64,000 nucleotides of DNA from Pandoraea horticolens (GTDB lineage: Bacteria > Pseudomonadota > Gammaproteobacteria > Burkholderiales > Burkholderiaceae), in the NCBI RefSeq assembly GCF_902459555.1, contig NZ_CABPSM010000015.1:62001-126000 (forward strand), given 5' to 3'. The position numbers and the translations under genes were made by a program. Positions within the stretch are counted from its first letter, which is position 1, and each line of letters begins with the position of its first letter. This document shows positions 10,246-30,000 of this stretch, piece after piece. A model generated the notes under the pieces. That model saw nothing but the letters and a program-made list of their open reading frames with translations. It ran no database searches and was not told the DNA's origin.

Positions 10246-11043
10246 ATGGATACCTCACTACCGCTTCCGAAGTACCACCAGATCTACCTCGTGCTACGCG
10301 AGCAGTTGCAGGAGGGACGTTTCGATCGCGACGGCGTGCCGGGCGAACATGTGCTGGCCGATCAGTTCAGTGTGGCGCGTATCACCATTCGTAAGGCGAT
10401 GGAAATGCTGGTGGCCGATGGTCTCGTCGTGCGTCGCCCGGGACTGGGAACGTGGCCGTTGCATGCCGGGCAACGCACCGGCGGCAAGACGCCAGGCATC
10501 TCCCGCGAGAAGGCGCATCTGACCGGCTTGCTCGAGAACATCGTCAACATGGGGCTGCGCACGAGTGTTTCGGTGCTCGAATCGAGTGTCGTGGGCGCGA
10601 GCGATGCCGTTGCCGACGCGTTGGCGCTGGAACTCGGTGCACCGGTCTACAAAAGCGTTCGTGTACGCAGCACGCAGGCTGGCCCCTTGTCGTACATCAC
10701 GACGCATGTGCCCCAGGGGATCACTGAGATCAATCGCGAAGAACTTGAACGCAAGCCGCTGCTGATGCTGCTCGAAGAAGCCGGTGTCGAACTCGGCGGC
10801 GCGACGCAAACCATTTCCGCTCGTCTGGCCGATGCCGTCGTGGCACGCCATCTCGACATCGCCGTCGGCTCTGCGTTGCTGGCGGTCACGCGCCTCGTGC
10901 GCGACGTGTCCGAGCGTCCCGTGCAACTGTTGCAAGGCCTGTATCGCCCCGATCGCTACCAGTACCAACTTCAACTCTCTCGTGTCGGCAATATCGACGC
11001 GAAGGTCTGGGTCAGCGAAGAACTGTCTGCCCAATTCCACTGA
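10246..11043 (+). CDS. GntR-family (HutC/UTRA) transcriptional regulator
   Basis: The 265-residue protein has an N-terminal GntR winged HTH (residues about 8-75: YHQIYLVLREQLQEGRF, HVLADQFSVARITIRKAMEM) and a C-terminal UTRA effector-binding domain (about 95-255) typical of the HutC subfamily. This subfamily usually represses catabolic operons and is released by the substrate or an intermediate. It is the first gene of the operon, 20 bp before the substrate-binding-protein gene. Its promoter lacks room for a ribosome-binding site, suggesting leaderless translation. The two matching operators point to autoregulation plus control of the porin. Confidence 0.93.
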   Translation: MDTSLPLPKYHQIYLVLREQLQEGRFDRDGVPGEHVLADQFSVARITIRKAMEMLVADGLVVRRPGLGTWPLHAGQRTGGKTPGISREKAHLTGLLENIVNMGLRTSVSVLESSVVGASDAVADALALELGAPVYKSVRVRSTQAGPLSYITTHVPQGITEINREELERKPLLMLLEEAGVELGGATQTISARLADAVVARHLDIAVGSALLAVTRLVRDVSERPVQLLQGLYRPDRYQYQLQLSRVGNIDAKVWVSEELSAQFH

Positions 11044-11063: not shown

Positions 11064-12275
11064 ATGAGTTCGCGTCGCACGTTCTTGCGTCAGTCCACTG
11101 CTATGGCCGCGCTCGCTGCCACTTCCAGCGCACCATGGCTCGCGCACGCCGCCGGCAAGCCGGTCAAGATCGGTGTGCTGCATCCCGTCACGGGAGCGCT
11201 GGCCTACTCCGGCCAGCAGTGCCGTCTCGGTGCACTGCTGGCCATTGACGACATCAATGCCGCAGGCGGCATCAAGTCGCTTGGCGGTGAGCCCATCGAG
11301 GCGGTGCTCGGCGACGCACAGTCGCGCCCGGAGGCCGGGTCGGCGGAAGTCGAGAAGATGAACGAGGCGGGTGTGTCGGCCATCGTTGGCGCTTATGCGT
11401 CGGCGATCTGTCTGGCGACGACGCAAACGGCGGCGAAATATGGCCTGCCGCATGTCGTTGACGTGGGCGTGGCCGACCAGATCGTGGAGCGCGGCCTGAC
11501 GAACACCTTCCGTTTTGGCCCCGGCTACCGCATGTGTTCGCTGCGCGCGGTCGACGATCTCGCCGCCCTCAACAACGCCGCCGGGAAGCCGGCCAAGACG
11601 GTGATGATCGTGCACGAAGAGTCGCTCTTCGGTACGGGCACGGCCGCGCTGCTGCAAAAGGAATTGCCCGCCCGCGGCTTCGAGATCAAGGAAGTGATCA
11701 AGCACGCCAACCCGACGCGCGACTTCAATAACATCGTGCTGCGCATGCGCTCGGTGAATCCGGACATTGTGATTCCGGCGAACTACTACAACGAATACGC
11801 GCTACTGCTGCGTGCGATGAAGCAGCAGAAGGTGCAGCCCAAGGCGATCTACTCGGTGCTCGGCGGCGCGGCGTCGAGCTACAAGTTCCTCAAAGAGTTT
11901 CCGGACATCGCCGACGGCATCATCGACTGCAACCACTGGTTCAATCCGAAAGACCCGCGCGTGGCGACGCTCAAAGCGCGCACGCAAGCCAAGGGAGCGT
12001 TCTTCAGTTACGAGGTCTTCATGACCTACACGGCGATGATGCTGCTGGCCGATGCCATCGAGCGCGCCAAATCCGTCGATCGCGCGGCGATTACGGCGGC
12101 GCTCGCATCGAGTTCGTTCAAGGACCACATCATGCCCTACGGCCCGACGAAGTTCGTCAACGGGCAGAACACGGGCGCACAGCCGCTGCTCACGCAGGTC
12201 TCGCGCGGCGACATCAATGTGATTCTGCCGGACACCTATCGTCAGGTGGCGCCGATCTTCCCGCTCAAGGCCTGA
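11064..12275 (+). CDS. ABC transporter substrate-binding protein, branched-chain-amino-acid/amide type
   Basis: The 403-residue periplasmic protein has a twin-arginine signal (SSRRTFLRQSTAMAALAATS, cut near AHAAG). A Peripla_BP_6 fold follows, opening with VKIGVLHPVTGALAYSGQQ. This family (LivK/AmiC/UrtA) binds amino acids, amides, urea and aromatic or dicarboxylic acids, so ligand identity cannot be deduced. Genes for permeases and ATPases follow with 4-bp or smaller gaps. Export by Tat suggests folding before export. The neighbouring enzymes suggest a cyclic amide, imide or carboxylate ligand. Confidence 0.92.
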   Translation: MSSRRTFLRQSTAMAALAATSSAPWLAHAAGKPVKIGVLHPVTGALAYSGQQCRLGALLAIDDINAAGGIKSLGGEPIEAVLGDAQSRPEAGSAEVEKMNEAGVSAIVGAYASAICLATTQTAAKYGLPHVVDVGVADQIVERGLTNTFRFGPGYRMCSLRAVDDLAALNNAAGKPAKTVMIVHEESLFGTGTAALLQKELPARGFEIKEVIKHANPTRDFNNIVLRMRSVNPDIVIPANYYNEYALLLRAMKQQKVQPKAIYSVLGGAASSYKFLKEFPDIADGIIDCNHWFNPKDPRVATLKARTQAKGAFFSYEVFMTYTAMMLLADAIERAKSVDRAAITAALASSSFKDHIMPYGPTKFVNGQNTGAQPLLTQVSRGDINVILPDTYRQVAPIFPLKA

Positions 12276-12279
12276 TGCG

Positions 12280-13152
12280 ATGTTCGACCCGGTCATTCTC
12301 CTGTCGGCCGTGCTCAACGGGCTCACCACGGGGGCGGTGTACGCGCTCATCGCCCTGGGCCTCACGCTCGTGTACGGCGTGCTGCACATCATCAACTTCT
12401 CGCACGGCGCGGCGTTGATGATCGCGCTGTACGCCGTGTGGCTGCTCAAGGAAAAGCTCGGCATCGATCCGTATGTTGCGCTGCCGTTCGTCACACTAGG
12501 CATGTTTGCGCTCGGCTACGGCTTGCAACGCTGCGTGATCGAGCGGGCCAGCCACGGCAAGGACGAGAACATTCTGCTCGTCACCCTCGGGCTTGCCATC
12601 GTGCTGGAGAACCTTGCGCTGGTGGGGTTCAAGTCCGATACGCACACCATCGACACCCCTTACACGCTCGCCACCGTCGACATCGGACCGGTCATGCTGT
12701 CTGTGCCGAAGCTCATCGCATTCGGCGGCGCGTTGGCTGCGGCGGCGTTGCTCTTCTGGATCATGCGGGCGACGGATCTCGGCCGTGCAATTCGTGCCGT
12801 TGCCAAGGAGAAGCACGGCGCGAAGCTCATGGGGATCGACGTCGAGCGGGTCTACGCGCTGTCGTTCGGCATCGGCATGGCGTGTGTGGGCGCGGCGGCT
12901 TGTTTCCTGATGCCGACGTACTACGTCAACCCGCAAGTGGGCAGCGGCTTCGTGCTGGTGGCCTTCACCATTGTGGTGCTCGGCGGCATGGGGAGCTTCG
13001 CCGGCGCACTCGCCGGGGGGCTGCTCATCGGTGTGGTCGAGTCGCTGGGCGGGCTATGGCTGGGCGATTCGCTCGGGCAGATGGGCATCTTCGCCATTTT
13101 CATCATCGTCGTGCTGCTGCGTCCGCAGGGCTTGTTCGGTGCGCGGGCATGA
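12280..13152 (+). CDS. ABC transporter permease, LivH type
   Basis: This 290-residue inner-membrane protein has about eight hydrophobic segments and family signatures near the start (NGLTTGAVYALIALGLTLVY, IINFSHGAALM). It starts 4 bp after the binding-protein stop. With the LivM-type protein it would form the transmembrane channel of the importer. The conserved loop AIRAVAKEKHGAKLMGID is the cytoplasmic coupling segment that contacts the ATPases. Confidence 0.94.
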   Translation: MFDPVILLSAVLNGLTTGAVYALIALGLTLVYGVLHIINFSHGAALMIALYAVWLLKEKLGIDPYVALPFVTLGMFALGYGLQRCVIERASHGKDENILLVTLGLAIVLENLALVGFKSDTHTIDTPYTLATVDIGPVMLSVPKLIAFGGALAAAALLFWIMRATDLGRAIRAVAKEKHGAKLMGIDVERVYALSFGIGMACVGAAACFLMPTYYVNPQVGSGFVLVAFTIVVLGGMGSFAGALAGGLLIGVVESLGGLWLGDSLGQMGIFAIFIIVVLLRPQGLFGARA

Positions 13153-13168
13153 GCAGGGAGAGCAAACG

Positions 13169-14185
13169 ATGAGAGACCTTCGTTGGATCATGTTGTTCGG
13201 CGTCGTGATCGCGGCGCTGCTGGCCGCGCTGCAATCGGGCGTGTGGTTGTCGTTCGTGATGATGACGCTCTATACCGTGCTGCTGTCGCAGTCCTGGAAC
13301 ATTCTGGGCGGGTTCGGCGGGCAGTTGTCGTTCGGGCATGCGCTCTTCTTCGGCGTAGGCGCCTACGCGCAAGCGATTGCGCAGTTGCAGTGGGGTTGGA
13401 ACCCTTGGCTGGCGATGCCGTTCGCCATCGTGATGGGGACAGTGATCGCCGTCGTCATCGGCGCGATCACGTTTCGCTACGGCCTCAAGGGGTCGTACTT
13501 CGCGCTCGTGACGCTGGCCTTCGCGGAAGTCTTCCGGATTCTCGCCGTGTCGCTGCCGTTCACCGGGGCGGGCGTGGGGCTGATGGTGCCGTTGCGTCAG
13601 AGCGTCGGGAATCTGCAATTCGCGTCGCCGCGTGGTTATGCGGCGCTTCTGCTCTTCTTCGTGATGGCCGCGCTGCTCGTCACGGCCTGGTTGCGGCATT
13701 CGCGCTTCGGCGCGTGGCTGCAAGCCGTGCGCGACAACGAGAACGCAGCGCGTGCGGTCGGCGTGAATCCGCTGCGCGTGAAGCTCGGTGCAATTGCACT
13801 CTCTGGCGCATTCATGAGCGCGGCGGGTATGTGCTACGTGCAGATGTTCCAGTACATCGACGCGGGCATTGCCTTTGGCTCGACGATCTCGGTCGAGGCA
13901 CTTGTCGGCGTGATCGTGGGCGGTTTGGGCACGCTCTGGGGGCCCGTGCTGGGCGCGGCGGTGCTGTATGCACTGGGCGAGTTCACGCGAAATCTGTTCG
14001 GCGAGTTGCCGGGCCTGTCGATGGTGATTTACGGCGTGGTGCTGATTGTGATCGTGATGTTCCTGCCACGCGGCATTACCGGCGCGGGAGCGTCGGTGCG
14101 CCGGTTGCTGGGAACGGACAAGAAGACGGTTGCCGCGCCCGATGCGCAAGCGGCCGCCACGCATGAGGAGAACGCCCGTGTCTGA
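13169..14185 (+). CDS. ABC transporter permease, LivM type
   Basis: Start chosen at ATG 13169 (MRDLRWIMLFGVVIAALL), 16 bp after the livH-type stop with GGGAGAGC upstream; the longer frame overlaps the preceding gene and is a shadow. The 338-residue product has the LivM signatures GGQLSFGHALFFGVGAY and LQAVRDNENAARAVGVN (coupling helix). The hydrophilic C-terminal tail is short. Its stop overlaps the next gene's GTG by 8 bp, indicating translational coupling. Confidence 0.94.
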   Translation: MRDLRWIMLFGVVIAALLAALQSGVWLSFVMMTLYTVLLSQSWNILGGFGGQLSFGHALFFGVGAYAQAIAQLQWGWNPWLAMPFAIVMGTVIAVVIGAITFRYGLKGSYFALVTLAFAEVFRILAVSLPFTGAGVGLMVPLRQSVGNLQFASPRGYAALLLFFVMAALLVTAWLRHSRFGAWLQAVRDNENAARAVGVNPLRVKLGAIALSGAFMSAAGMCYVQMFQYIDAGIAFGSTISVEALVGVIVGGLGTLWGPVLGAAVLYALGEFTRNLFGELPGLSMVIYGVVLIVIVMFLPRGITGAGASVRRLLGTDKKTVAAPDAQAAATHEENARV

Positions 14186-14936
14186 GGCGCTGTTGAAGGC
14201 CAATGGCCTGTCCATTACGTTCGGCGGCCTCAAGGCCGTTCAGGACGTGAGTCTCGTCGTCAATCCGGGCACGCTCACGGCGCTTGTCGGCCCGAACGGT
14301 GCGGGGAAAACGACGCTGTTCGGTCTGCTCTCCGGATTCCTGACGCCAACGGCGGGCCGTGTCGAGTTTCAGGGACGCGACATCACGGGGCAAGCCCCGT
14401 TCGAAACCGCGCGCCAGGGGCTCACGCGCACCTTCCAGATCGTGCAGCCGTTCGGCGCGCAGACGGTGCGCGAGAACATCGCCGTGGGCGCGCATCTGCA
14501 TCAACGTGAGCGCCGCGCGGCGCTGCGCGAGGCAGAGGAAATTGCACTTCGCACGAACCTGCAGGCCCAGTTGGACAAGCCCGCCGCCGACCTTACCGTC
14601 TGCGGTCGCAAGCGTCTCGAACTGGCCCGAGCGTTGGCGACCCGCCCGCGTCTGTTGCTGCTCGACGAAGTGCTCGCGGGCCTTAACCCGAGCGAGATCG
14701 ACGAGATGATTCCCGTGGTGCGCGAAATCGCCGAGAGCGGGGTGACCGTGCTGATGATCGAGCATGTGATGCGCGCGGTCATGAGTCTTGCGGAGCATGT
14801 GTGGGTACTCGCGCAGGGCAAGCTGATCGCTGCCGGTACGCCGCGAGAAGTCACCTCCGATGCCGCCGTGATCGAAGCCTATCTGGGGCACGGCACAGCG
14901 GCGCGGCTCGCTGCGCAGTCGGGAGGTGCGCAATGA
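14178..14936 (+). CDS. ABC transporter ATP-binding protein, LivG type
   Basis: GTG 14178, preceded by GAGGAG (14165-14170), gives a 252-residue ATPase. Walker A is GPNGAGKTT (about residues 38-46); Walker B is LLLLDEVLAGL. The signature region reads VCGRKRLELARAL rather than LSGGQ, which is common in LivG proteins. The C-terminal LivG extension (AEHVWVLAQGKLIAAGTP, then AVIEAYLG) is present. It overlaps both neighbours (8 bp with livM-type, 4 bp with livF-type). Confidence 0.93.
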   Translation: MSEALLKANGLSITFGGLKAVQDVSLVVNPGTLTALVGPNGAGKTTLFGLLSGFLTPTAGRVEFQGRDITGQAPFETARQGLTRTFQIVQPFGAQTVRENIAVGAHLHQRERRAALREAEEIALRTNLQAQLDKPAADLTVCGRKRLELARALATRPRLLLLDEVLAGLNPSEIDEMIPVVREIAESGVTVLMIEHVMRAVMSLAEHVWVLAQGKLIAAGTPREVTSDAAVIEAYLGHGTAARLAAQSGGAQ

Positions 14937-15643
14937 GTCATTTGTTGGAAGTGGAGGGCTTGCGCACCGGCTATGGCCGTGTCGAAGTGCTGCGCGGCGT
15001 CGACCTGAGCGTGGGCGCAGGCGAGATCGTGGTGCTGCTCGGCAGCAACGGCGCGGGCAAATCCACGTTGAACAACACGCTCTCGGGCATTAACCCTGTG
15101 TGGGCCGGACGCGTGCGGTTCGACGGACACGACCTCACCGGGCGTCATTACCGCGACGTAGTGAAGGCGGGGCTGATTCAGGTGCCGGAAGGCCGCCGCA
15201 TCTTCCCTAACCTGAGCGTGCGCGAAAACCTGATGCTGGGGGCGTTCGCCCGTGGACGCGCGTCGCGCGAGCAAAGCCTGGAGCGCATGCTCGATCTGTT
15301 TCCGCGTCTTCGAGAACGCATTGCCCAGCCCGCCGGCACGATGTCCGGTGGCGAGCAGCAGATGCTGGCCATCGGCCGCGGCCTGATGGCCGAGCCACGA
15401 CTGCTCATCCTCGACGAACCGTCGCTGGGCCTCTCGCCCCTGATGGTCGAAGAACTCTTCACGCTGATCGCCCGCCTGCAACACGATGGCCTGTCGATCC
15501 TGCTGGTCGAACAGAACGTAGGGCAGTCGCTGGAAACGGGCCAGCGCGGCTATGTGCTGGAGAACGGCGCGATCCGTCACAGCGGCACGTGCGCCGAGTT
15601 GCTGGCGAGCAGCGACCTGCGCCGCGCCTATCTCGGAATGTAA
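14933..15643 (+). CDS. ABC transporter ATP-binding protein, LivF type
   Basis: ATG 14933 overlaps the livG-type stop (ATGA). The 236-residue ATPase has Walker A GSNGAGKST, signature SGGEQQMLAIGRGLM and Walker B LLILDEPSLGL, followed by VEQNVGQSLE with the switch-region residues of LivF. It completes a five-component branched-chain-type importer. It is followed after 4 bp by the hydratase large subunit, so transporter and enzymes are one transcription unit. Confidence 0.94.
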   Translation: MSHLLEVEGLRTGYGRVEVLRGVDLSVGAGEIVVLLGSNGAGKSTLNNTLSGINPVWAGRVRFDGHDLTGRHYRDVVKAGLIQVPEGRRIFPNLSVRENLMLGAFARGRASREQSLERMLDLFPRLRERIAQPAGTMSGGEQQMLAIGRGLMAEPRLLILDEPSLGLSPLMVEELFTLIARLQHDGLSILLVEQNVGQSLETGQRGYVLENGAIRHSGTCAELLASSDLRRAYLGM

Positions 15644-15647
15644 GGGA

Positions 15648-16916
15648 ATGACCGTGGCTCAAACGCTGACGCAAAAACTGTTGGCGGCCGCCTGTGGCCG
15701 CGACGAGGTCGCCGTGGGCGAGATCGTCACTTGTCGCGTCGATCTCGCGATGTTTCACGATTCCAGCGGCCCCCGCCGTCTGCAACCGATGCTCGAATCG
15801 CTGGGCGCACAGTTGTGGGACAAATCGAAAGTGGTGCTCGTCATCGATCACTACGTGCCGGAATTCGACGACGAATCGCGGCGTATCGTGCGCATCGCCC
15901 GCGGCTGGGCGAGCGCGCAGGCGCTGCCCAACGTCTACGACTCGGTTGGCATCTGCCACGTGGTCGTTCCCGAACACGGCCATCTGCGCCCCGGCATGTT
16001 CTGCGTGGGCGGTGATTCGCATTCGCCCACCGGCGGGGCGTTCGGCGCTTATATGTTCGGCATCGGCAGCACCGAAATGCTGGGCGTCGCCGTCTCGGGC
16101 GAGATCTGGGTCAAAGTGCCGGAAACCCTTCAGATGCGCTGGGACGGACGTCTGGCCGACGGTGTAACCGCGAAGGACATGATGCTGCACATGATCGGCC
16201 GCTTCGGCATGAATGGCGGACGTTATCAGGCCATCGAATTCTGCGGCGAGGCCGTGCGTGCGCTGTCGATGCAGGAGCGCATGACGCTCTCGAACATGAG
16301 CGCCGAACTTGGCTCGCAGGTTGGGCTGATTGCGCCCGACGCGACCACGCTCGACTACCTGCGCTCGGTTGGCGCGACCGCCGCCATTGACGTCGAGCGC
16401 TGGCAGTCAGATGAGGGCGCCGCCGCCGAAGTGCATTCGTTCGATGCCGGCGCACTTGCCCCGCAGGTGGCCGCGCCGCACAGCCCTGCCAATACGCGCG
16501 GCGTCGGCGAATTCGCCGATGTCGCGGTAGACGTCGCTTATCTGGGCGCCTGCACGGGGGCGAAGCTCGAGGACCTGCGCGCGGCGGCCCGCGTGCTGCG
16601 AGGCAAGCGCGTGGCCGATGGTATGCACTTCGTCGTCGCCCCGGCCTCGCAGCGAGATCAGGCGCAGGCGGCTCGCGAGGGCGTGATGGACGTGCTCACG
16701 GCTGCCGGTGCGCAGGTGCTTGCCACCACCTGCGGTGCCTGCGCGGGATACGGCGGCTCGATTCCCGAAGGGGCAACCGTCATGTCGAGCACTGCCCGCA
16801 ATTTCAAGGGGCGCATGGGGGCGGAGACGGCGCAGGTCTATCTCGGCTCGCCCTATACGGTGGCGGCTGCCGCGCTCACTGGCCGCATCGCCGACCCGCG
16901 CGACTTGCTCGCCTGA
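15648..16916 (+). CDS. Aconitase-family hydratase, large subunit (LeuC-like / DmdA-like)
   Basis: The 422-residue protein belongs to the aconitase/isopropylmalate isomerase large-subunit family. The three [4Fe-4S] ligands are present: Cys about 301 in LGACTGAK and Cys about 362 and 365 in TTCGACAGYGG. GGDSHSPTGGAFG and FGIGSTEM are substrate/cluster motifs. The enzyme adds or removes water at a C=C bond of a dicarboxylic acid. True leucine LeuC is unlikely here: no leuB or leuA is nearby and the context is catabolic. The best precedent is dimethylmaleate hydratase DmdA of nicotinate fermenters, because a dimethylmalate-lyase-like gene occurs at 23293. Specificity is inferred. Confidence 0.85.
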   Translation: MTVAQTLTQKLLAAACGRDEVAVGEIVTCRVDLAMFHDSSGPRRLQPMLESLGAQLWDKSKVVLVIDHYVPEFDDESRRIVRIARGWASAQALPNVYDSVGICHVVVPEHGHLRPGMFCVGGDSHSPTGGAFGAYMFGIGSTEMLGVAVSGEIWVKVPETLQMRWDGRLADGVTAKDMMLHMIGRFGMNGGRYQAIEFCGEAVRALSMQERMTLSNMSAELGSQVGLIAPDATTLDYLRSVGATAAIDVERWQSDEGAAAEVHSFDAGALAPQVAAPHSPANTRGVGEFADVAVDVAYLGACTGAKLEDLRAAARVLRGKRVADGMHFVVAPASQRDQAQAAREGVMDVLTAAGAQVLATTCGACAGYGGSIPEGATVMSSTARNFKGRMGAETAQVYLGSPYTVAAAALTGRIADPRDLLA

Positions 16917-16938: not shown

Positions 16939-17487
16939 ATGACCACCCCAACCACGACTGTTGATCCACGCAGCACCTCGCATCGCGCCTGGGTCGTCGG
17001 CGCCGATATCGATACCGACGCACTCGCGCCGGGTGCTTACATGAAGTTCGGCATCGACGAGATCGCGCGCCATTGCCTGCATCGCGTTCGCCCCGAGTTT
17101 GCGGCGAGCGTGCAGGCGGGCGACGTGCTCGTCGCCGGCCCGAACTTCGGCATCGGCTCGTCGCGCGAGCAGGCGGCAGCGGCGCTGGTTTATCTCGGCG
17201 TGCGCGCTGTGATTGCGCCGTCGTTCAATGGCCTGTATTTCCGCAACGCCTTCAATGTGGGGCTGTTGTTACTGACCTGCGCCGACGCGCATCGCGTTGC
17301 CGAGGGCGAAGCCCTGCGGCTTTCGCCGCGCGAAGGCTTCGTCGAGCGTGCCAACGGCAGCCGGCTCGCCTGCGAGACCGTGCCGGGATTTCTGCTCGAC
17401 ATGGTCGACGCAGGCGGGCTGCTCAACCTGCTCAAGCAACGCCGTATGGCACCCCACGCGACATCCAACGGAGTTTCCTCATGCTAG
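16939..17487 (+). CDS. Aconitase-family hydratase, small subunit (LeuD-like / DmdB-like)
   Basis: ATG 16939 gives 182 residues of the swivel domain that closes over the active site. DIDTDALAPGAYMKF and VLVAGPNFGIGSSREQA are the family signatures; GIGSSREQA carries the substrate-binding Ser/Arg. It pairs with the large subunit 22 bp upstream. Its stop overlaps the following hydantoinase-B-like start by 7 bp. Confidence 0.88.
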   Translation: MTTPTTTVDPRSTSHRAWVVGADIDTDALAPGAYMKFGIDEIARHCLHRVRPEFAASVQAGDVLVAGPNFGIGSSREQAAAALVYLGVRAVIAPSFNGLYFRNAFNVGLLLLTCADAHRVAEGEALRLSPREGFVERANGSRLACETVPGFLLDMVDAGGLLNLLKQRRMAPHATSNGVSSC

Positions 17488-19175
17488 ATCCCGTCACTTT
17501 GGCGGTCCTCAAGGGCCGTCTGGAGCAGATCGCCGACGAAATGGACGCGACGCTTTACCGCAGTGCGTTCAATCCCATCATTGCCGAGGCGCATGACGCC
17601 TGTCACGGCATCTACGACGCGGCCACTGGCGCCACGCTGATTCAGGGCAAGTCGGGCCTGCCCGTCTTCGTCGGTGCGATGGCCTTCGCCGTGCAGGCGG
17701 CGGCGCGCGCGGCGGCAGAGCGCGGCGGCATGGTCGATGGCGATGTATGGCTGTTCAACGACCCCTACGAGGGCGGTACCCACGCCAACGACTTCAAGCT
17801 TGTGCGTCCGGTGTTTCGCAACGGCAAGCTGTATTGCTTTCTGGCGTCGGCCGCGCACTGGCACGACGTGGGAGGTGCGGTGCCGGGCAACTACAACCCG
17901 GCGGCGACCGAGTGCTGGCAGGAAGCCGTGCAGATTCCGCCGGTACGCATCGTTCGCGGTGGTGAACTCGATGCCGACGTGCTCGCGATCCTCAAGGCAA
18001 ACACGCGACTGCCCGACAGCCTCTGGGGCGATCTGAACGGGCAATTGTCGGCGCTGACCCTCGGCGCACGACGTCTGGCAGATCTGCTCGACGAATACGG
18101 CGACATGACGGTGCAGGAGGCCCTTGGCCAACTGCGCGAGCGTGCCGTCAAGCTCATGCGTGCACATGTGGCCGCGTTGCCCGATGGCGAGTACGTCTAT
18201 CAGGACATGCTCGATAACGATGGGGTGCGCGATGTGCCGCTCACCATTGCGCTGCGCATGCGCGTGCAGGGCGAGACGCTTACGCTCGATTTCACCGGAA
18301 CGTCGCCTGCCTGCATGGGGCCGGTGAACATTTCCCGGGCGACGGCGATTGCCGCCTGCTACGTGGCGCTCAAACACCTGTTCCCGGATGTGCCCGCCAA
18401 CGCGGGCGTGCTGGACGCGGTGCAATTCGAACTGCCGGAAGGGTTGGTGATTTCCGCACAGCGCCCGCGCCCCGTGGGCGGCTATACCGAGACAATCCTG
18501 CGCATGATCGACGTGATCTTCTGTGCGATGGCCAAAGCCGCGCCGCAACGCGCGATGGCGCAGGCATACGGCACGATCAATGCCTTGTCGATCGCGGGCT
18601 ATCGCACCGACGAGGCGCGTCGCGGCCAGCGCTGGGTGATGTTCAGCTTCTTCGGTGGCGGCCACGGCGGCCACATGGATGGCGATGGTCTGTCGCACGG
18701 CAACGCGCCGATTTCGACCGCCACGATTCCGCCCGTCGAGATTCTCGAAGCGGCCTATCCCGTGCGTTTCACGCAGTGGGCGCTGCGTCCCGACTCGGCG
18801 GGCGACGGTGAGCATCGGGGCGGACTGGGTGCGATCTATGAGATCGAACTGCTGGAAGACAGCGCAGAAGCGTTTGTGTTCGGCGAGCGCGGCCGCTCGG
18901 CGCCGCAAGGCATTGTGGGTGGTCAGGCGTCGGTGCCGAACGTATTCCGGTATCAGAACGATGGCGAGTGGTGCACGCCGCCGATGGCCTCGAAGATGCT
19001 CGGCATCCGGCTGGCGCGCGGTGAACGTGTGCGGCTCGAGACGCCGGGTGGCGGCGGTTACGGCGATCCCGCCCGGCGCGACGCGGCAGCGCGCGCGCAT
19101 GACCGGGCGATGGGGTATGTGACGCAGGTGGCGGATGCCGCGAGCGGCAAGGCAACGAAGGAGCAACAGGCATGA
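17481..19175 (+). CDS. Hydantoinase B / oxoprolinase-type subunit
   Basis: Start ATG 17481 (MLDPVTLAVLKGRLEQIADE) is preceded by GGAG; longer frames upstream are shadows of the preceding gene. The 564-residue protein matches the HyuB/oxoprolinase-B fold: SAFNPIIAEAHDACHGIYD, FNDPYEGGTHANDFKLVRPV, SAAHWHDVGGAVPG and the C-terminal LETPGGGGYGDP. HyuB proteins work with HyuA in ATP-dependent opening of cyclic amides (hydantoins, 5-oxoproline, caprolactam) or in related carboxylations. It overlaps the hyuA-like gene by 4 bp. Confidence 0.92.
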   Translation: MLDPVTLAVLKGRLEQIADEMDATLYRSAFNPIIAEAHDACHGIYDAATGATLIQGKSGLPVFVGAMAFAVQAAARAAAERGGMVDGDVWLFNDPYEGGTHANDFKLVRPVFRNGKLYCFLASAAHWHDVGGAVPGNYNPAATECWQEAVQIPPVRIVRGGELDADVLAILKANTRLPDSLWGDLNGQLSALTLGARRLADLLDEYGDMTVQEALGQLRERAVKLMRAHVAALPDGEYVYQDMLDNDGVRDVPLTIALRMRVQGETLTLDFTGTSPACMGPVNISRATAIAACYVALKHLFPDVPANAGVLDAVQFELPEGLVISAQRPRPVGGYTETILRMIDVIFCAMAKAAPQRAMAQAYGTINALSIAGYRTDEARRGQRWVMFSFFGGGHGGHMDGDGLSHGNAPISTATIPPVEILEAAYPVRFTQWALRPDSAGDGEHRGGLGAIYEIELLEDSAEAFVFGERGRSAPQGIVGGQASVPNVFRYQNDGEWCTPPMASKMLGIRLARGERVRLETPGGGGYGDPARRDAAARAHDRAMGYVTQVADAASGKATKEQQA

Positions 19176-21244
19176 GCACAGCAGCAACGACCGGGGCCCC
19201 GCTGATCGTGGGTGTTGATGTAGGCGGCACGTTTACCGATTTGTTCGTGCTCGACGAGGCGGCCGGTGCGGCACGCATCGTCAAGGTGCCGTCGACGCGG
19301 GGCGAAGAAGCGCGCGGTTTCATGAACGGCATCGGGCGTGTCGGCGCTGCCGCCGAGACGGCAGGCGCGGGGGCCATCGCGACCATCGTGCACGGCACGA
19401 CGGTCGGCACGAATGCACTGCTCGAGCGTAAGGTCGCCCGCACCGGCATCATCACCACGACCGGCTTTCGCGACGTGCTGGAGATGCGCCGTCGCGACCG
19501 TCCCGCCACGTGGGGGCTGCGCGGCGATTTCACGCCGATCGTGCCGCGCGACCTGCGCATCGAAGTCGATGAGCGCGTGCTCTCGGACGGCACGATCCAC
19601 ACCGACGTCGATATCGCTCAGGTCGAGTCGGCGGCGCGTGCGCTGCTTGAAGCCGGTTGCGAAGCGGTGTGCGTGTTCTTCATCAATGCGTATGCCAACC
19701 CTGTCAACGAACAGCGGGCGGTCGCAGCGGTTCGCGCCCTCTGGCCTAACGGCTATGTGACGGCGGCGACGGAAGTATTGCCCGAGATCCGCGAATTCGA
19801 GCGGTGCTCGACCGCCACGCTTAACGCGGCGCTGCAACCGGTGGTGGGCAGCTATCTCACGCGGCTCGAGCGCGACCTGAAGGCACAAGGGTTCGGCGGT
19901 GAACTGCTCGTCGTGCAGAGCAATGGCGGCATCATGTCGCGGCAGACCGCCAGCGATGTCCCGGTACGCACCGCGCTCTCGGGGCCGGCGGCCGGTGTGA
20001 TCGCGTGCGCGGCGATTGCGCGCGCGGCGGGCTTCGCCAACGTTGTCACAGGCGATATGGGCGGCACGTCGTTCGATGTCTCGCTTGTGGCGGGCGGCGA
20101 GGCATCGCTCTCCGCACAGACATCCATCGAGTTCGGCATGGTGGTGCGCTCGCCGATGATCCAGATCGAAACCATCGGGGCGGGTGGTGGCTCGATTGCG
20201 TCGGTGGACGCAGGCGGCTTGCTGCAAGTCGGGCCCGAGTCGGCGGGCAGCATTCCCGGCCCGGCCTGTTACGGGCGCGGTAATCTGCGCCCGACCGTGA
20301 CCGACGCCAACGTGCTGCTCGGACGTATTGCCGCCGACCGGCCGCTGGGCGGCGGCTTGCTCGACAAACTCGACGCGGGCTTGGCGGCACAGGCCATCGG
20401 CGAGCACGTGGCCGCGCCGCTGGGGTTGGAGGTACATGCGGCGGCGGAAGCCATTCTGACGGTGGCCAACGCCAAGATGGCCGGGGCCATTCGCGTGGTG
20501 TCGATCGAGCGGGGCCACGATCCGCGCCAGTTTGCCTACATGCCGTTCGGCGGCGGCGGTGCGTTGCACGTGTGCGCGATGATGCGCGAGGTCGGTACGA
20601 CCACAGGGATCGTGCCGCGTTACCCCGGCGTGACCTCGGCGCTCGGTTGCGTGATGGCCGACATGCGTCACGACAGCGTGCAGACACTCAATCAGCCGCT
20701 TGCCGCCCTCGATGTCGAGGATCTCGTGGCCCGCGTGGAGGCGCTTGCTCAGGCTTGTCAGACGCGTCTGGATTCGGCGGGCGTGCGTTTCGAATCGGTG
20801 CGCGAGGCCATCGAACTCGACATGCTCTACGTCGGCCAAAGCCACACCGTGCGTGTGCCGGTGTCGCGCGATGCACTGCATCGCGATGGCATTGCACAGG
20901 CATTCGACGTTGCCTATCGCGAGGCGTTCGGCCGTGCGCTCGATGGGATTGCGGTGCGCATCATGAATCTGCGCTACGCCCGCATCGGTGTGCGTCCGAA
21001 ATTCGATCTCGCGGTGCTCGCGCCGCAGGACAGCGCCATGCCGGCGCCGCTGGGGACGCAACGTGTCTATCACGCAGGGCAGTGGTGGGATGCCGTGCGA
21101 TATGCGCGCCTCGATTTGCCGGTCGGTGCGACGGTGGCGGGCCCCGCGATTCTTGAGCAATCGGATACGACGATCTGGCTGGAGCCGGAATTCTCGGGGC
21201 GCGTCGACGCGCTGGGCAACCTGCTCATCACGCGCAGCGCTTGA
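19172..21244 (+). CDS. Hydantoinase A / oxoprolinase-type ATPase subunit
   Basis: The 690-residue protein begins with the actin/Hsp70-like ATP-binding motif GVDVGGTFTDLFVLD (from about residue 14). HGTTVGTNALLERK, VTGDMGGTSFDVSLV and FGGGGALHVCAM follow, all typical of HyuA/OplAH-A. It uses ATP to phosphorylate and thereby activate a lactam or imide carbonyl for hydrolysis by the AB complex. It starts inside the hyuB-like stop codon (ATGA). Acetone-carboxylase-like function is a formal alternative, but no gamma subunit is present. The neighbours favour ring opening of an imide or lactam. Confidence 0.92.
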   Translation: MSTAATTGAPLIVGVDVGGTFTDLFVLDEAAGAARIVKVPSTRGEEARGFMNGIGRVGAAAETAGAGAIATIVHGTTVGTNALLERKVARTGIITTTGFRDVLEMRRRDRPATWGLRGDFTPIVPRDLRIEVDERVLSDGTIHTDVDIAQVESAARALLEAGCEAVCVFFINAYANPVNEQRAVAAVRALWPNGYVTAATEVLPEIREFERCSTATLNAALQPVVGSYLTRLERDLKAQGFGGELLVVQSNGGIMSRQTASDVPVRTALSGPAAGVIACAAIARAAGFANVVTGDMGGTSFDVSLVAGGEASLSAQTSIEFGMVVRSPMIQIETIGAGGGSIASVDAGGLLQVGPESAGSIPGPACYGRGNLRPTVTDANVLLGRIAADRPLGGGLLDKLDAGLAAQAIGEHVAAPLGLEVHAAAEAILTVANAKMAGAIRVVSIERGHDPRQFAYMPFGGGGALHVCAMMREVGTTTGIVPRYPGVTSALGCVMADMRHDSVQTLNQPLAALDVEDLVARVEALAQACQTRLDSAGVRFESVREAIELDMLYVGQSHTVRVPVSRDALHRDGIAQAFDVAYREAFGRALDGIAVRIMNLRYARIGVRPKFDLAVLAPQDSAMPAPLGTQRVYHAGQWWDAVRYARLDLPVGATVAGPAILEQSDTTIWLEPEFSGRVDALGNLLITRSA

Positions 21245-21266: not shown

Positions 21267-21884
21267 ATGAGTCAAACCCTCAAGCTCGACAGCGCTCGCA
21301 CCGCGCTCATCATCGTGGACTTGCAGAACGACTTCATCACGCCGGGCGGTGCGTACGACCGGGGGAGAGCGACCACACCGCAGGCGCAGGCGCTTCCCGC
21401 GCGGCTGGCGCCGGTTGCGGCGTCGCTCAAAGCGGCGGGCGGTTACGTCGCGGCGAGTCAGTTCACGCTCTGGCCCGATGCGAACGGCGAGCCGATGATC
21501 TCCCCGCACCTGAAACAGTTACGGCCTTTCCTGCGGCGCGGTGACTTCGTGGCCGGCACGACGGGACACGCGACGGTGGATGCCCTTGCGGGCCACGTCG
21601 ACATGTCGGTGTGGAAGGTGGCTTATTCGGCGTTCTTCAACACGCAGCTCGACTGGGTGCTGCGTCGTGCAGGCGTCGAGACCGTAGCGGTGTGCGGCAT
21701 CGTGACGAATGGCGGCGTGGCGAGTACCGCGCGGGACGCGCATATGCGCGATTACCGCGTACTCGTGCTCTCGGACGGCTGCGCCGCCCCCACACCTGCC
21801 GCACACGACGCCGCGCTTGCCGATCTGTGCACCGTGGGCGAAGTTCTGACTTGCGAGGCCTTCATGGGCCGGCTTGCTGCATGA
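21267..21884 (+). CDS. Isochorismatase-fold hydrolase lacking the nucleophilic Cys
   Basis: ATG 21267 with GGAGAGACG upstream gives 205 residues. The family's catalytic Asp is Asp18 (IIVDLQNDF) and the Lys is Lys117 (VWKVAYSAFF). The nucleophile position, normally GxxTNxCVxSTA, reads GIVTNGGVASTARDA, so Gly150 replaces Cys. Gly at this site is the state in true isochorismatases (EntB, PhzD), which hydrolyse a vinyl ether without a Cys. Amidases of this fold (nicotinamidase, N-carbamoylsarcosine amidase, maleamate amidase) need the Cys. The context would suggest an amidase, so the substitution is unexpected. The gene ends in an ATGA overlap with the flavoprotein gene. Confidence 0.85.
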   Translation: MSQTLKLDSARTALIIVDLQNDFITPGGAYDRGRATTPQAQALPARLAPVAASLKAAGGYVAASQFTLWPDANGEPMISPHLKQLRPFLRRGDFVAGTTGHATVDALAGHVDMSVWKVAYSAFFNTQLDWVLRRAGVETVAVCGIVTNGGVASTARDAHMRDYRVLVLSDGCAAPTPAAHDAALADLCTVGEVLTCEAFMGRLAA

Positions 21885-23296
21885 GCGCGCCGGTGATTCG
21901 TCATGGCTTGCCGCCAGTGGACGATCTGCCGCACGCCCGTGTCGTGATCGTCGGCGCGGGGGCTTGCGGGCTGACTGCCGCGTTGGTCCTGCAAGACGCC
22001 GGCATCGATTGCGTACTATTGGAGCGCGACGCGGTGCCCAGCGGTTCCACGGCACTCTCGTCGGGCTTCATCCCGGCGGCGGGAAGCGATGTGCAGCGGG
22101 CCGCGGGTATCGACGATAGCCCGCGCCGGTTTGCCGACGATATTGCGGGCAAGACGCAGGGCACGGCTGCCGGGCATCTCGTGCGTGCCTACACGCAGGC
22201 CTCGGGGCCGGCGATGGATCTGTTGGCGCGTCATGGCTTGCGCTTCGAGATTCTCGATGGCTTTCTGTATCCCGGGCACACCGTGCGTCGTATGCACAGC
22301 TTGCCCGAGCGTACCGGTGCGGCGCTCATGGCGGCACTGGAGCGCGCCGTGCAGGCGACCGACGCGGCTATCCTCACGCGCACGCTGGTCCGGGAGTTAT
22401 GGGTGGACGAGGCGGGGCGAGTATGCGCCGTCGGTGGACTTCGTCCGGATGGTTCGATGGAGTATCTCGGCTGCGACATGCTGTTGCTGGCGTGCAATGG
22501 TTTCGGCGGCAATGCCACGCTTCGCGCCGAACTGCTGCCGGAGATGACGCATGCGGTGTTTGGCGGGCACGAAGGTAACGACGGCAGTGCGCTTCTCTGG
22601 GGGCGCGAACTGGGCGCGGCACAGGCCGATCTCGGCGGGTATCAGGGACACGGCTCGTGGGCGAGTCCGCACGGTGTGCTGATTTCGTGGGCCGTCATCA
22701 TGGACGGTGGCATTCAGGTCAATCGGGAGGGACGCCGTTTCCACGACGAAACGCACGGCTACTCCGAGGCGGCCGTGTATGTGCTGGCGCAGACGGATGG
22801 CGTCGCGTGGAACGTGTTCGATGCGCAAACGCTGGCGCTCGCCAGAACCTTCCCCGACTTTCAGGACGCAGAAGCCGCTGGGGCGCTCAAGACTTGCGCG
22901 GATATTGACGCGCTCGCCCGAATCGTCGGCTGCGACGCGGCGACGTTGCGAGAGACGCTCGACACCGTGGCGCCTGGTGCAACGGCCGGTGACGGACGTA
23001 CGTTCGCGCGAGCGATCGCCGCGCCGTATTACGCCGTGAAAGTCACCGGTGCGCTATTCCACACGCAAGGCGGACTCGATATCGACGCCCAATGCCGTGT
23101 ACTCACGCCCGACGGCACGCCTCTGCCCAATCTGCTAGCCGCCGGTGGCGCGGCGCGTGGTGTGTCGGGCCATGCCGTCTGGGGCTATCTGTCTGGCAAC
23201 GGCCTGCTCTCGGCCGTTGCGGGAGGCTTTCTCGCAGCGCATACGGCAGCCGATGTGATCGCGGCCCAATCACCTTCTCAGGAGACCTCTGCATGA
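21881..23296 (+). CDS. FAD-dependent oxidoreductase of the fumarate reductase/tricarballylate dehydrogenase type
   Basis: The 471-residue flavoprotein has an N-terminal FAD-binding motif VVIVGAGACGLTAALVL (about residues 21-37), Glu at the end of the second strand (LLERD), and a flavin-contacting SSGFIPAAGS. The C-terminal VLTPDGTPLPNLLAAGGAAR and GYLSGNGLLSA are typical of the family containing fumarate reductase flavoprotein, urocanate reductase, TcuA and 3-ketosteroid dehydrogenases. It likely oxidises a CH-CH bond alpha to a carboxyl or imide carbonyl, or reduces the corresponding alkene. It has no signal peptide and is probably cytoplasmic. It overlaps both neighbours by 4 bp. Confidence 0.87.
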   Translation: MSAPVIRHGLPPVDDLPHARVVIVGAGACGLTAALVLQDAGIDCVLLERDAVPSGSTALSSGFIPAAGSDVQRAAGIDDSPRRFADDIAGKTQGTAAGHLVRAYTQASGPAMDLLARHGLRFEILDGFLYPGHTVRRMHSLPERTGAALMAALERAVQATDAAILTRTLVRELWVDEAGRVCAVGGLRPDGSMEYLGCDMLLLACNGFGGNATLRAELLPEMTHAVFGGHEGNDGSALLWGRELGAAQADLGGYQGHGSWASPHGVLISWAVIMDGGIQVNREGRRFHDETHGYSEAAVYVLAQTDGVAWNVFDAQTLALARTFPDFQDAEAAGALKTCADIDALARIVGCDAATLRETLDTVAPGATAGDGRTFARAIAAPYYAVKVTGALFHTQGGLDIDAQCRVLTPDGTPLPNLLAAGGAARGVSGHAVWGYLSGNGLLSAVAGGFLAAHTAADVIAAQSPSQETSA

Positions 23297-24156
23297 CGTC
23301 CTCGTCGTCTCTCAAACAGTGCCTGGGCGGCGATGTGCTGCTCGCCCCCGGTGTCTACGACGCGCTGTCTGCACTCATTGCCGCTCAGGCGGGCTTCGAG
23401 GCGCTGTATCTGTCGGGCGCGTCGATTGCCTACACCCGGCTGGGGCGCTCGGACATCGGGCTGACGACCTATCCGGAGGTGGAAGACACGCTCGCCCGGA
23501 TTACCGAGCGCGTTGAGATTCCCGTGATCGTCGACGCCGACACCGGCTTCGGCAACGCCCTCAACGTCAAACGCACCGTGCGAGGCTTCGAGCGCGCCGG
23601 GGCCGCAATGATTCAGTTGGAAGATCAGACCTTCCCGAAGCGCTGCGGTCATCTCGACGGCAAGGGCGTGGTGCCGGTGCAGGAGATGATCGGCAAGGTG
23701 CGCGCGGCGGTCGACGCCCGTCACGATGCGCGCACGCTGATTCTCGCGCGAACGGACGCCGTGGCCGTCGAAGGTCTCGATGCCGCGCTCGATCGTGCCG
23801 AGCGCTATCTGGAAGCGGGGGCCGATGCGCTGTTCATCGAAGCGTTGCGCAGCCCGGAGCAAATGGCGGCGGCGTGTACGCGATTCGCACAGCGCGTGCC
23901 GTTGCTGGCCAACATGGTCGAAGGCGGCAAGACCCCGGTGCAAAGCGCGCAGGCGCTCGCCGACATCGGCTTCCGTATCGTGATCTTCCCGGGCGGGACG
24001 GCGCGTGCTGTCGCCAACACGTTGCAGGGGTACTACGCCAATCTGCACGAGCAAGGCACTACGGCGGCATGGCGTGAACGCATGCTCGACTTCGATGGCT
24101 TGAATGCGGTGATCGGCACCCCGGCGCTGCTCGCCGAGGGCAAGCAATACGAATAG
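23293..24156 (+). CDS. Isocitrate lyase/PEP mutase superfamily lyase (dimethylmalate-lyase-like)
   Basis: The 287-residue protein shows the Mg-binding DADTGFGN at residues 81-88 and the lyase signature KRCGH at 116-120. The Cys of KRCGH is the catalytic residue of isocitrate, methylisocitrate and 2,3-dimethylmalate lyases and is absent in PEP mutase and phosphonopyruvate hydrolase. Start ATG 23293 overlaps the flavoprotein stop. It should cleave a 2-hydroxy dicarboxylate in a retro-Claisen reaction to a 2-oxo acid plus a carboxylic acid. Together with the aconitase-type hydratase it would resemble the last two steps of nicotinate fermentation. Oxaloacetate decarboxylase activity is an alternative in this family. 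Confidence 0.88.
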   Translation: MTSSSSLKQCLGGDVLLAPGVYDALSALIAAQAGFEALYLSGASIAYTRLGRSDIGLTTYPEVEDTLARITERVEIPVIVDADTGFGNALNVKRTVRGFERAGAAMIQLEDQTFPKRCGHLDGKGVVPVQEMIGKVRAAVDARHDARTLILARTDAVAVEGLDAALDRAERYLEAGADALFIEALRSPEQMAAACTRFAQRVPLLANMVEGGKTPVQSAQALADIGFRIVIFPGGTARAVANTLQGYYANLHEQGTTAAWRERMLDFDGLNAVIGTPALLAEGKQYE

Positions 24157-24264: not shown

Positions 24265-25488
24265 TCAGACGATGCTGTCGCCGCGCAACTGCGCGATCCT
24301 GGCGTCGTCGAAGCCCAGGCGTTCACGCAGAATTTCGTCGCTGTGCTGGCCCAGCGTGGGCGGAGCGCTACGGGCCACGGGCGGCGTCTCGCTCATCTTC
24401 ATCGGGCTGGCGACGAGGCGGGCCACACCGCCCGAGGGATGCGGCAACTCCAGCGCCATCTCGCGCGCGATGACCTGCGGATGGGCGAACACTTCCGGCA
24501 GCGTGTTGATCGGGCCGCACGGCACACCGGCCGCTTCGAGCTTGTCGATCCAGGTGTCCTTGCCGAACTTGCACACCATTTGCGCGAGAATTGGCACGAG
24601 CGTGTCGCGGTGACGTACGCGCGATGGGTTGGTCGCAAAACGCGCGTCGTCGGCAAGCGCGGGCGCTTCGCCCGCCTCGACGAACTTGCGGAACTGCCCG
24701 TCGTTGCCCACCGCCACGATGATCCAGCCGTCGTCGGCCGTCTGGAAGGTCTGGTACGGCACGATGTTCGGGTGCGCATTGCCCCAGCGCACGGGGGGCT
24801 TCCCGCTCGCCAGATAGTTGGTGTTCATGTTGGCGAGCATGGCGACCTGCGTGTCGAGCAACGCCATGTCGATGTACTGACCCACGCCCGTGCGGTCGCG
24901 GTGGGTGAGGGCGGCCATGATCGCGAGGCTCGCATACATGCCCGTCATCAGATCGGCAATGGCGACGCCGGCCTTTTGAGGGCCGCCCCCCGGCAGGCCG
25001 TCGCGCTCGCCGGTGATGCTCATGAAGCCGCCAATGCCTTGCACGATGAAGTCGTATCCGGCGCGCGACGCGTGCGGGCCGTTCTGGCCGAAGCCCGTGA
25101 TCGAGCAGTAGACGAGATCCGGTTTGGTGGCCTTGAGCGACGCGTAGTCGAGGCCGTACTTCGCGAGTTGGCCGACCTTGTAGTTCTCGACGACGACGTC
25201 GCTTTGCGCGGCGAGTGCGCGCACGATCGCTTGCCCTTCCGGGCGCGAGATGTCGAGCGTGAGCGAGCGCTTGTTGCGGTTGGCCGCGAGATAGTAAGCG
25301 GCCTCCTGCGTGTCGTTGCCGTTGGCGTCTCGCTGATACGGCGGCCCCCAGCTACGAGTGTCGTCGCCCACGCCGGGGCGCTCCACCTTGATGACGTCGG
25401 CCCCCAGATCCGCCAGATTCTGCGTGGCCCACGGCCCGGCCAGTACTCGCGAAAGATCCAACACCCGGATATGGCTCAGCGCGCCCAT
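24265..25488 (-). CDS. Family III CoA-transferase (CaiB/BaiF/Frc type)
   Basis: Start chosen at the ATG ending at 25488 (MGALSHIRVLDLSRVLAGPW), with AGGAGA about 9 bases upstream; the longer frame has no such site. The 407-residue protein carries the conserved LADLGADVIKVERPG and Asp179 in AGVAIADLMTGMYA, which aligns with the catalytic Asp of formyl-CoA transferase. GGG/GLPGGGP is the glycine-loop region. It transfers CoA between carboxylic acids such as succinyl-CoA and an organic acid. It converges on the catabolic operon and is not part of it, but could activate one of its acids; this is speculation. Confidence 0.9.
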   Translation of the reverse strand: MGALSHIRVLDLSRVLAGPWATQNLADLGADVIKVERPGVGDDTRSWGPPYQRDANGNDTQEAAYYLAANRNKRSLTLDISRPEGQAIVRALAAQSDVVVENYKVGQLAKYGLDYASLKATKPDLVYCSITGFGQNGPHASRAGYDFIVQGIGGFMSITGERDGLPGGGPQKAGVAIADLMTGMYASLAIMAALTHRDRTGVGQYIDMALLDTQVAMLANMNTNYLASGKPPVRWGNAHPNIVPYQTFQTADDGWIIVAVGNDGQFRKFVEAGEAPALADDARFATNPSRVRHRDTLVPILAQMVCKFGKDTWIDKLEAAGVPCGPINTLPEVFAHPQVIAREMALELPHPSGGVARLVASPMKMSETPPVARSAPPTLGQHSDEILRERLGFDDARIAQLRGDSIV

Positions 25489-25662
25489 CGTATTCGTATC
25501 TCCTGTGCATTCGTCGTGGTTCGTGGTCGTCGGCATTGCGCGGAACAATGTTTTGCAATGCGGAACTTCTGAGGGGGAGTCTACGGCCTGCCGTTCTCCG
25601 CTGACCAGCGTCGTTTCGCAGTGCGGTTGGCGGCGCGACGCGGTGACGGGATCGATTTCCCG

Positions 25663-25668
25663 TATAAT
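25663..25668 (+). promoter_or_regulatory. Candidate -10 of alaS
   Basis: Perfect TATAAT within CCCGTATAATCAAAAG, 65 bases before the alaS ATG. A clear -35 at standard spacing was not found. Confidence 0.5.
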
Positions 25669-25733
25669 CAAAAGTTTGCAAAATACCCACCAGGCTTGGC
25701 TTAGCTCGCCCGGTCCCCACGCTCACGCACCCT

Positions 25734-28696: not shown

Positions 28697-28717
28697 GTTT
28701 CCCACAAAGTCATCGTC

Positions 28718-29974: not shown

Positions 29975-30000
29975 TCCTCGCGCGCAGTGCCGCCGTCATC

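Follow-up and report, generated by a model that had tools for sequence, protein, structure and literature searches.

The window analysed here is a stretch of 64,000 nucleotides from Pandoraea horticolens. An open reading frame on its forward strand (21267..21884, +) encodes a product of 205 amino acids that was classified by Pfam, alignment and phylogenetic tree as a Gly-type isochorismatase-fold hydrolase, referred to below as the Gly protein. The stretch GIVTNGGVASTA of this product contains Gly150, and Asp18, Lys117 and Cys143 are also present. In a Pfam scan, the protein matched PF00857 (Isochorismatase) with 129 bits against a cut-off of 27, and both this score and the fold place it in the superfamily. 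The translation and the alignment agree with the sequence-only reading of this gene, in which Asp18 and Lys117 of the usual triad were visible and Gly150 occupied the nucleophile site.

The Gly protein is encoded within an operon on the forward strand. At the head of the operon lies a gene for a GntR-type regulator (10246..11043, +; PF00392 and PF07702) that shares 79% identity with the GntR at the same place in another locus, L027. It is followed by the periplasmic binding protein of a branched-chain-amino-acid-type ABC transporter (11064..12275, +; PF13458, 170 bits) and by permeases and ATPases of the livH, livM, livG and livF type (12280..15643, +), which were read from open reading frames and have annotated counterparts in the same order in L027. 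The livH product is 84% identical to its L027 counterpart, and the livM, livG and livF types were assigned from the open reading frames and gene order. Next come the large subunit of a LeuC/homoaconitase-type hydratase (15648..16916, +), which passed the cut-off of TIGR01343 hacA_fam (409 bits against 385.7), and a LeuD/DmdB-type small subunit (16939..17487, +), which passed that of TIGR02087 (149 bits against 109) and has a basic residue in the loop PGAYMKF. The best PDB match of this LeuD is the homoaconitase small subunit 2pkp. The window LeuCD scored over the cut-off of hacA_fam and under those of the HacA_Meth and HacB_Meth models.

The two genes directly upstream of the Gly protein encode a HyuB-type subunit (17481..19175, +; PF02538, 555 bits; start codon read by eye) and a HyuA-type subunit of an ATP-dependent lactam/imide hydrolase (19172..21244, +; 690 aa; PF01968/PF05378). 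They overlap by 4 bp, and HyuA ends 22 bp before the Gly protein. HyuB matches a hydantoinase (6yra, 228 bits) and an N-methylhydantoinase (7hk5, 226 bits) in the PDB. Caprolactamase was dropped as the exact function of HyuAB, since the NCBIfam models for it (NF050156 for HyuA) gave 510 bits for HyuA and 285 bits for HyuB, both against a cut-off of 1000. Downstream, with an overlap of 4 bp, lies a gene for an FAD-dependent alkene reductase or dehydrogenase of the flavocytochrome c/TcuA kind (21881..23296, +; PF00890), which scored 134 bits against the flavocytochrome c fumarate reductase 1d4c. This gene in turn overlaps by 4 bp a gene for a PrpB-like C-C lyase of the isocitrate lyase/PEP mutase superfamily (23293..24156, +), classified by PDB alignments and a retained KRCGH motif. 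The lyase gave 299 bits with TIGR02317 prpB and 71 bits with isocitrate lyase; PrpB was dropped as its exact function because the cut-off of TIGR02317 is 354. Tail to tail with the operon lies a gene for a CaiB-type CoA-transferase (24265..25671, -), for which the best model was succinate--glutarate CoA-transferase (NF052585; 514 bits, under the cut-off of 750). A CaiB-type gene adjoins the operon in all seven Pandoraea loci among the best 80 of 584 loci. The amide-type cluster that had been noticed around the Gly protein is thus real, and is bigger than was first described. Further downstream, a simple repeat at about 29990-30070, read as AIAIAI or SLSLSL depending on the frame, lies between the open reading frames 28655-29974 and 30108-30878.

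In E. coli RutB and PncA, column 150 of the alignment with the Gly protein holds the catalytic Cys. Compared with the Cys-type amidases RutB, BiuH, NicF and PncA, the Gly protein therefore has the catalytic Asp and Lys and lacks the catalytic Cys. All NCBIfam equivalogs stayed under their cut-offs (RutB 79 of 378 bits, BiuH 64 of 370, nicotinamidase 40 of 174), and RutB was dropped as an exact function on its score. The enzymes EntB and YecD of E. coli carry Gly in the same alignment column. For EntB this agrees with what had been said of the position at the outset, and the residue there is Gly156 (PMC12553813). YecD, with Asp25, Lys112 and Gly145, is a further known case of the Asp-Lys-Gly set that the sequence-only reading had not named (PMC12553813). 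Four public records (L029-L032) annotate Gly proteins without Cys at the catalytic position as 'cysteine hydrolase'. The window's genome also encodes, outside the window, isochorismatase-fold proteins (L001, L003, L008) with Gly (YecD group), Ser, or His/Ala/Val at three catalytic positions.

The conservation of Gly150 was examined in 169 orthologous sequences drawn from six partly overlapping sets, with the window's own copy excluded and a few genomes falling in two sets. Residue 150 was Gly in 168 of these, Ala in one and Cys in none. The searches of the window's family and of the order used the whole window protein and gave Gly in 17/17 and 2/2 sequences, respectively. The phylum (7/7), class (25/26) and further-family (37/37) sets were collected with profiles built from Gly sequences and are to that extent biased, as are the named loci (80/80; the best 80 of 584 loci), for which one of two search patterns contains TNGG. 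In the window's family, 18 of 299 genomes have an orthologue, as do 8 of 398 in the phylum and 3 of 150 in the order, with the window's genome counted each time. In the order, true orthologues (61-100% identity) were separated by a gap from all other matches (39% at most). In the class set, 26 of 385 genomes had an orthologue; this set was recognized as alphaproteobacterial because it contains the Tistrella plasmid sequence at 100%. In the further family, 37 of 198 genomes had one, nearest to the Sulfitobacter orthologue (75-79%). The sole exception at position 150 was an Ala in L230; the genome carries this protein as a second copy, with no pathway gene adjoining it. Conservation of Gly150 in orthologues from the same cluster had been proposed as a check, and Cys in identical clusters would have pointed to a strain-specific loss or a sequencing error; both of these explanations are ruled out by the conservation across orthologues.

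Asp18, Lys117 and Arg86 were invariant across all six sets, and Gln20, His81 and His159 each showed one variation. The copies with Ala150 (L230/L284) and Gln159 (L226/L282) both lie outside the operon. The possibility that another Cys (143 or 172) serves as nucleophile, with Cys143 put forward as a substitute in the sequence-only reading, could draw on the position of Cys143 beside the motif and its presence in each of the 17 orthologues of the window's family. Across four sets, however, Cys143 was replaced by Ala, Gly, Ser or Thr in 14/80, 17/26, 29/37 and 5/7 orthologues, and Cys172 was replaced by Ser in 2/80 and 4/37. As no other Cys is invariant, Cys143 was excluded as the nucleophile, and catalysis by either Cys is highly improbable.

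The relationship of the Gly protein to EntB and YecD was examined in a tree of 81 family members from which column 150 had been removed; it is a quick tree, and its deep forks are open. The 81 members came from 83 rows (L008_g and L175_g were omitted); the window gene, L002, had been skipped earlier, and L004, L005 and L179 were unusable. The orthologues of the Gly protein, 21 in number, formed one clade (SH-aLRT 100), apart from both a YecD group (five rows, support 99) and an EntB group (three rows, support 100). On this tree, Gly at column 150 requires three changes. Judged from the tree, orthologues of the Gly protein are a third separate Gly clade in the isochorismatase fold; membership of the EntB or YecD types was ruled out by the separate clades, within the limits of a quick tree built without column 150. 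YecD has the same fold and the same catalytic set as the Gly protein but differs in its motif (TNIGVEST, against TNGGVAST in the Gly protein), and no HyuAB, LeuCD or lyase genes lie in the 6 kb around E. coli yecD. EntB shares Gly at the nucleophile position and differs by its AHIGC motif and by the enterobactin genes around it.

An AlphaFold2 model of the Gly protein (pLDDT 92.6) was compared with solved structures, with differences in Z under 1 counted as ties. Among the matches listed, the closest folds were biuret hydrolase BiuH (VIA Z 22.4), the ureidoacrylate amidohydrolase RutB (21.4), triuret hydrolase TrtA (21.2) and YecD (20.7), followed by NicF (20.6), Ami (20.4) and PhzD (18.5). 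RutB, unlike the Gly protein, has Cys in column 150. The maleamate amidases NicF (3ot4, 3uao) and Ami (4l07, 4l08), with Z of 19.9-20.6, have the same fold, and their substrate is a half-amide such as is proposed below for the Gly protein; Ami differs in having Cys149, as reflected in the C149A mutant named in the title of 4l08. Because of its separate clade and the fold ranking, the Gly protein looks like a Gly variant of an origin separate from EntB, with a fold nearest to amide and ureide hydrolases.

Gly is also found at the nucleophile position of PhzD. This raises the alternative that the Gly protein protonates a vinyl ether, enol or enamide bond and adds water to it, in the way EntB and PhzD act on isochorismate, and cuts no amide. 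The Asp-Lys-Gly set of EntB and the lack of a conserved covalent nucleophile would agree with such chemistry. The separate clade and a fold nearer to BiuH, RutB and TrtA than to PhzD argue against it, no chorismate or enolpyruvyl gene was found among the window operon proteins scanned with NCBIfam and Pfam, and the operon suggests nitrogen removal and glutarate formation. Enol or vinyl ether hydrolysis, one of the options raised at the outset, thus keeps a small place as an unlikely activity and is not favoured by clade, fold or operon. Another of those options was that the amide nitrogen is removed elsewhere, and this may be so.

The gene neighbourhood was surveyed in 131 loci with enough flank (162 loci minus 5 repeats and 26 with short flanks; a few genomes still occur twice). 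A HyuB orthologue (at least 50% identity) was found beside the Gly protein in 127 of these, a hydratase (LeuCD or PrpD-type) in 126, a PrpB-like lyase in 125 and the FAD enzyme in 107, and HyuA lay directly upstream of the Gly protein in 124. Many genera carry the operon, including Limnohabitans, Variovorax, Achromobacter, Sulfitobacter and Azospirillum. A contig labelled as an Akkermansia muciniphila MAG (L103) carries the operon in its Limnohabitans form, with a Gly protein 61% identical to that of the window, and is probably wrongly binned. The Gly protein is thus usually part of one conserved operon of HyuB-HyuA, the Gly protein, a LeuCD or PrpD-type hydratase, a PrpB-like lyase and often a flavoprotein. 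In one family, presence of the Gly protein coincided exactly with that of a HyuB orthologue, in 37 of the 197/198 genomes whose lists were compared; the HyuB orthologues of these genomes share 61-68% identity (E <= 5.8e-170), and the next HyuB class 42-45%.

In four genomes (L074, L088, L102 and L282), the Gly protein has no HyuB orthologue beside it. Three of these exceptions were searched whole: HyuB was absent genome-wide in Halomonas and Billgrantia, and only distant HyuBs were found in L074. In Halomonas and Billgrantia, the Gly gene lies directly behind genes for a tripartite tricarboxylate transporter of the TctC-TctB-TctA type (TctB was scanned in Halomonas only); this arrangement, in genomes that have no HyuB, counts in favour of a vinyl ether, enol or enamide as substrate. 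In L282, the Gly protein occurs with a GntR gene and no adjoining pathway gene. In a Comamonadaceae MAG (L074/L146), the Gly protein and a GntR regulator (50% identical to the window's) lie near an HMG-CoA-lyase-type protein, CaiB and LeuCD, with an arylmalonate-decarboxylase-like protein and an aromatic-hydroxylase-like FAD protein also adjoining; this set is possibly a CoA-dependent version of the pathway. The tight link to HyuA and the exact co-occurrence with HyuB in one family could also mean that the Gly protein is a catalytically silent partner or a third subunit of HyuAB. Two genomes that have the Gly protein without any HyuB and the invariance of Asp18, Lys117 and Arg86 in all six sets speak against such a role, and it is considered quite improbable.

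A link between the operon and glutarate was found in Tistrella (L029), where the gene order is HyuB-HyuA-Gly protein-acyl-CoA dehydrogenase-CaiB-LeuC-LeuD. Whether this acyl-CoA dehydrogenase is a glutaryl-CoA dehydrogenase (GCDH) was set as a test beforehand, since pyruvate and glutarate would be the end products of a route from hematinic acid. The enzyme scored 620 bits against human GCDH and 617 against the GCDH 3gnc, compared with 243 for the best chain of another labelled activity. A corresponding enzyme in L311 scored 598 bits against 3gnc and 237 against the best chain of another labelled activity. The chain 4w9u, labelled only as acyl-CoA dehydrogenase, falls within the GCDH range (600 bits with the Tistrella enzyme, 688 with that of L311). 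The GCDH assignment was made because of these PDB comparisons; NCBIfam alone does not yield it, as no model passed its cut-off for either of the two enzymes scanned. GlutCoADH_Des gave 215 bits for Tistrella and 227 for L311 against a cut-off of 470, and the FadE model gave 235 bits for the Tistrella enzyme against 600.

GCDH was found directly behind the FAD gene in two genera besides Tistrella, which makes only three genera with GCDH in the operon. L311 carries a single run of tautomerase-HyuB-HyuA-Gly protein-lyase-FAD-GCDH-CaiB, in which neighbouring genes from the Gly protein through CaiB overlap by 4 or 8 bp. In L323, GCDH follows the FAD gene and the contig ends within it, with 36% of the gene present. 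GCDH (at least 45% identity) occurred in 4 of the 131 loci, among which L323 is not counted because its flank is too short. Assuming a single GCDH in a genome of about 4000 genes and a view of 20 genes, we estimate that chance alone would place one nearby in about 0.5% of loci. A single close GCDH (72% identity) is encoded in the window's genome, away from the operon. In a fourth genus (L273/L326), CaiB lies between the Gly protein and LeuC. Succinate--glutarate CoA-transferase was the best model, by more than 200 bits, for all four CaiB proteins scanned, all under the cut-off of 750 (window 514 bits, Tistrella 533, L311 535, L326 512). Since three genera carry GCDH in the operon, glutarate is a likely product of the pathway.

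From these gene contents, the Gly protein can tentatively be read as the hydrolase that acts second and releases nitrogen in a catabolic operon that would convert a carboxylated cyclic imide or lactam, with hematinic acid as the best fit, to glutarate, with no Cys needed. HyuAB would open the imide or lactam ring at the cost of ATP and yield a half-amide, whose remaining amide the Gly protein would cut, releasing nitrogen. LeuCD, or a PrpD-type enzyme, would then hydrate the cis-unsaturated acid left by amide cleavage, and the PrpB-like lyase would cleave the hydrated acid to glutarate and an oxoacid, probably pyruvate. A CaiB-type CoA-transferase and glutaryl-CoA dehydrogenase would take glutarate onward. 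In the literature searched, no report was found of HyuAB of this type opening an imide.

The hydratase and lyase steps have parallels in known pathways. The lower part of nicotinate fermentation uses the dimethylmaleate hydratase DmdAB and dimethylmalate lyase and yields propionate. Like the window operon, it pairs a LeuCD-type hydratase with a subsequent lyase from the isocitrate lyase superfamily. It differs in that it is not known to involve HyuAB or the Gly protein and in that it yields propionate rather than glutarate. The methylcitrate cycle uses PrpD/AcnD and PrpB. The operon resembles it in the logic of a hydratase and a 2-methylisocitrate lyase, the window lyase being PrpB-like at 299 bits. 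It differs from this cycle in that its lyase stays under the PrpB cut-off and in that it adds nitrogen-releasing genes and, in three genera, GCDH.

If glutarate is the product, the compound split by a lyase of this superfamily must be HOOC-C(OH)(R)-CH(COOH)-CH2CH2-COOH. With CH3 as R, the oxoacid would be pyruvate, the substrate of hydration a methylated homoaconitate and the matching imide hematinic acid; CH3 is favoured because PrpB is the model closest to the lyase by the scores given above. Hematinic acid (3-methyl-4-(2-carboxyethyl)maleimide), which derives from chlorophyll, heme and bilins, would therefore be the best-fitting natural substrate. It has been found in leaves, in herbivore material and, by work cited in the same source, in lake sediments (PMC7318184). 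Routes for isonicotinate/citrazinate, nicotinate, creatinine/hydantoin and caprolactam were also considered and fit the glutarate link less well. With some reserve, the operon can be proposed to serve the catabolism of hematinic acid and perhaps, through the FAD enzyme, of dihydrohematinic acid; the Gly protein would then be an amidase in which the carboxylate of the substrate takes the place of the missing Cys. For hematinic acid as such, the FAD enzyme would be superfluous.

A single residue in the loop of LeuD-type small subunits has a role in substrate preference. At this position, LeuD proteins of the window type have Lys in 88, Arg in 2 and His in 2 of the 92 rows listed of 97; Arg is found in homoaconitase 2pkp and Val in 3vba. 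The loop region of LeuD-type small subunits has been described as setting substrate preference (PMC7308503). In the window type, the basic residue counts in favour of the proposed route; the argument cannot be extended to the other LeuD type, in which Ser occupies this position in 29 of 38 loci.

A different nitrogen-releasing activity was also considered, in which HyuAB opens a hydantoin-like ring and the Gly protein, as a ureide hydrolase, removes the carbamoyl group. The creatinine route proceeds in this way, by ring opening and then carbamoyl removal. The best fold matches of the Gly protein (the biuret, ureidoacrylate and triuret hydrolases) and the match of HyuB to N-methylhydantoinase (226 bits) could be explained by such an activity. 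Those hydrolases carry the Cys that the Gly protein lacks, though, and release of a free amino acid would leave the hydratase, the lyase and glutaryl-CoA dehydrogenase unexplained, which makes a ureide substrate improbable.

For cleavage of a half-amide by the Gly protein, a mechanism that replaces the Cys nucleophile can be proposed. Among maleamic acids, disubstituted ones are the fastest to be cleaved. Kirby and Lancaster reportedly described carboxyl catalysis in substituted maleamic acids in 1972 (cited in PMC6384577). In the enzyme, attack by the neighbouring cis-carboxylate on the amide of a disubstituted maleamate would give a cyclic anhydride; Asp18 and Lys117 would provide acid/base catalysis, and the Gly149-Gly150 loop would make room for the substrate. 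With no conserved nucleophile, hydrolysis would proceed either by direct attack of water or with help from the substrate. The loss of Cys may have been possible because substituted maleamic acids are cleaved with their own carboxyl group, and ring opening may be coupled to ATP because such acids tend to re-close. YecD is reported to have no gamma-lactamase activity and to leave uncleaved several amides that its G145C mutant did cleave (PMC12553813). This result, together with Cys149 of Ami, which acts on plain maleamate, counts against substrate-assisted amide cleavage.

Billgrantia ethanolica has a parallel cluster (L142, 9099-17596) with LeuCD, GntR, a PrpB-like lyase, an FAD enzyme and an isochorismatase-fold protein that has Cys and is nearest to the maleamate amidase Ami (104 bits). 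It also encodes two proteins of the polysaccharide-deacetylase family, one of which matches the allantoinase PuuE (92 bits). The polysaccharide-deacetylase/PuuE-like family includes cyclic imidases, for example HxnM (PMC9304392). This parallel cluster looks like a substitute for HyuAB and the Gly protein, and would thereby support the order of imide, half-amide and diacid. Both versions occur within one genome in Billgrantia, and their substrates may differ.

Among the openly licensed papers listed, judged by titles and abstract openings, no description of this combination of genes was found, nor any bacterial pathway that consumes hematinic acid. The operon, widespread as it is, thus apparently has not been described. 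Since it lacks a conserved Cys, the Gly branch lends itself to tests of whether amides are cleaved with help from the substrate. Chlorophyll synthesis and degradation are on a scale of 10^12 kg per year, and one-ring products have been reported from leaves and sediments (PMC7318184). If the reading of the operon as a pathway for hematinic acid is true, it would close a gap in the carbon and nitrogen cycle.
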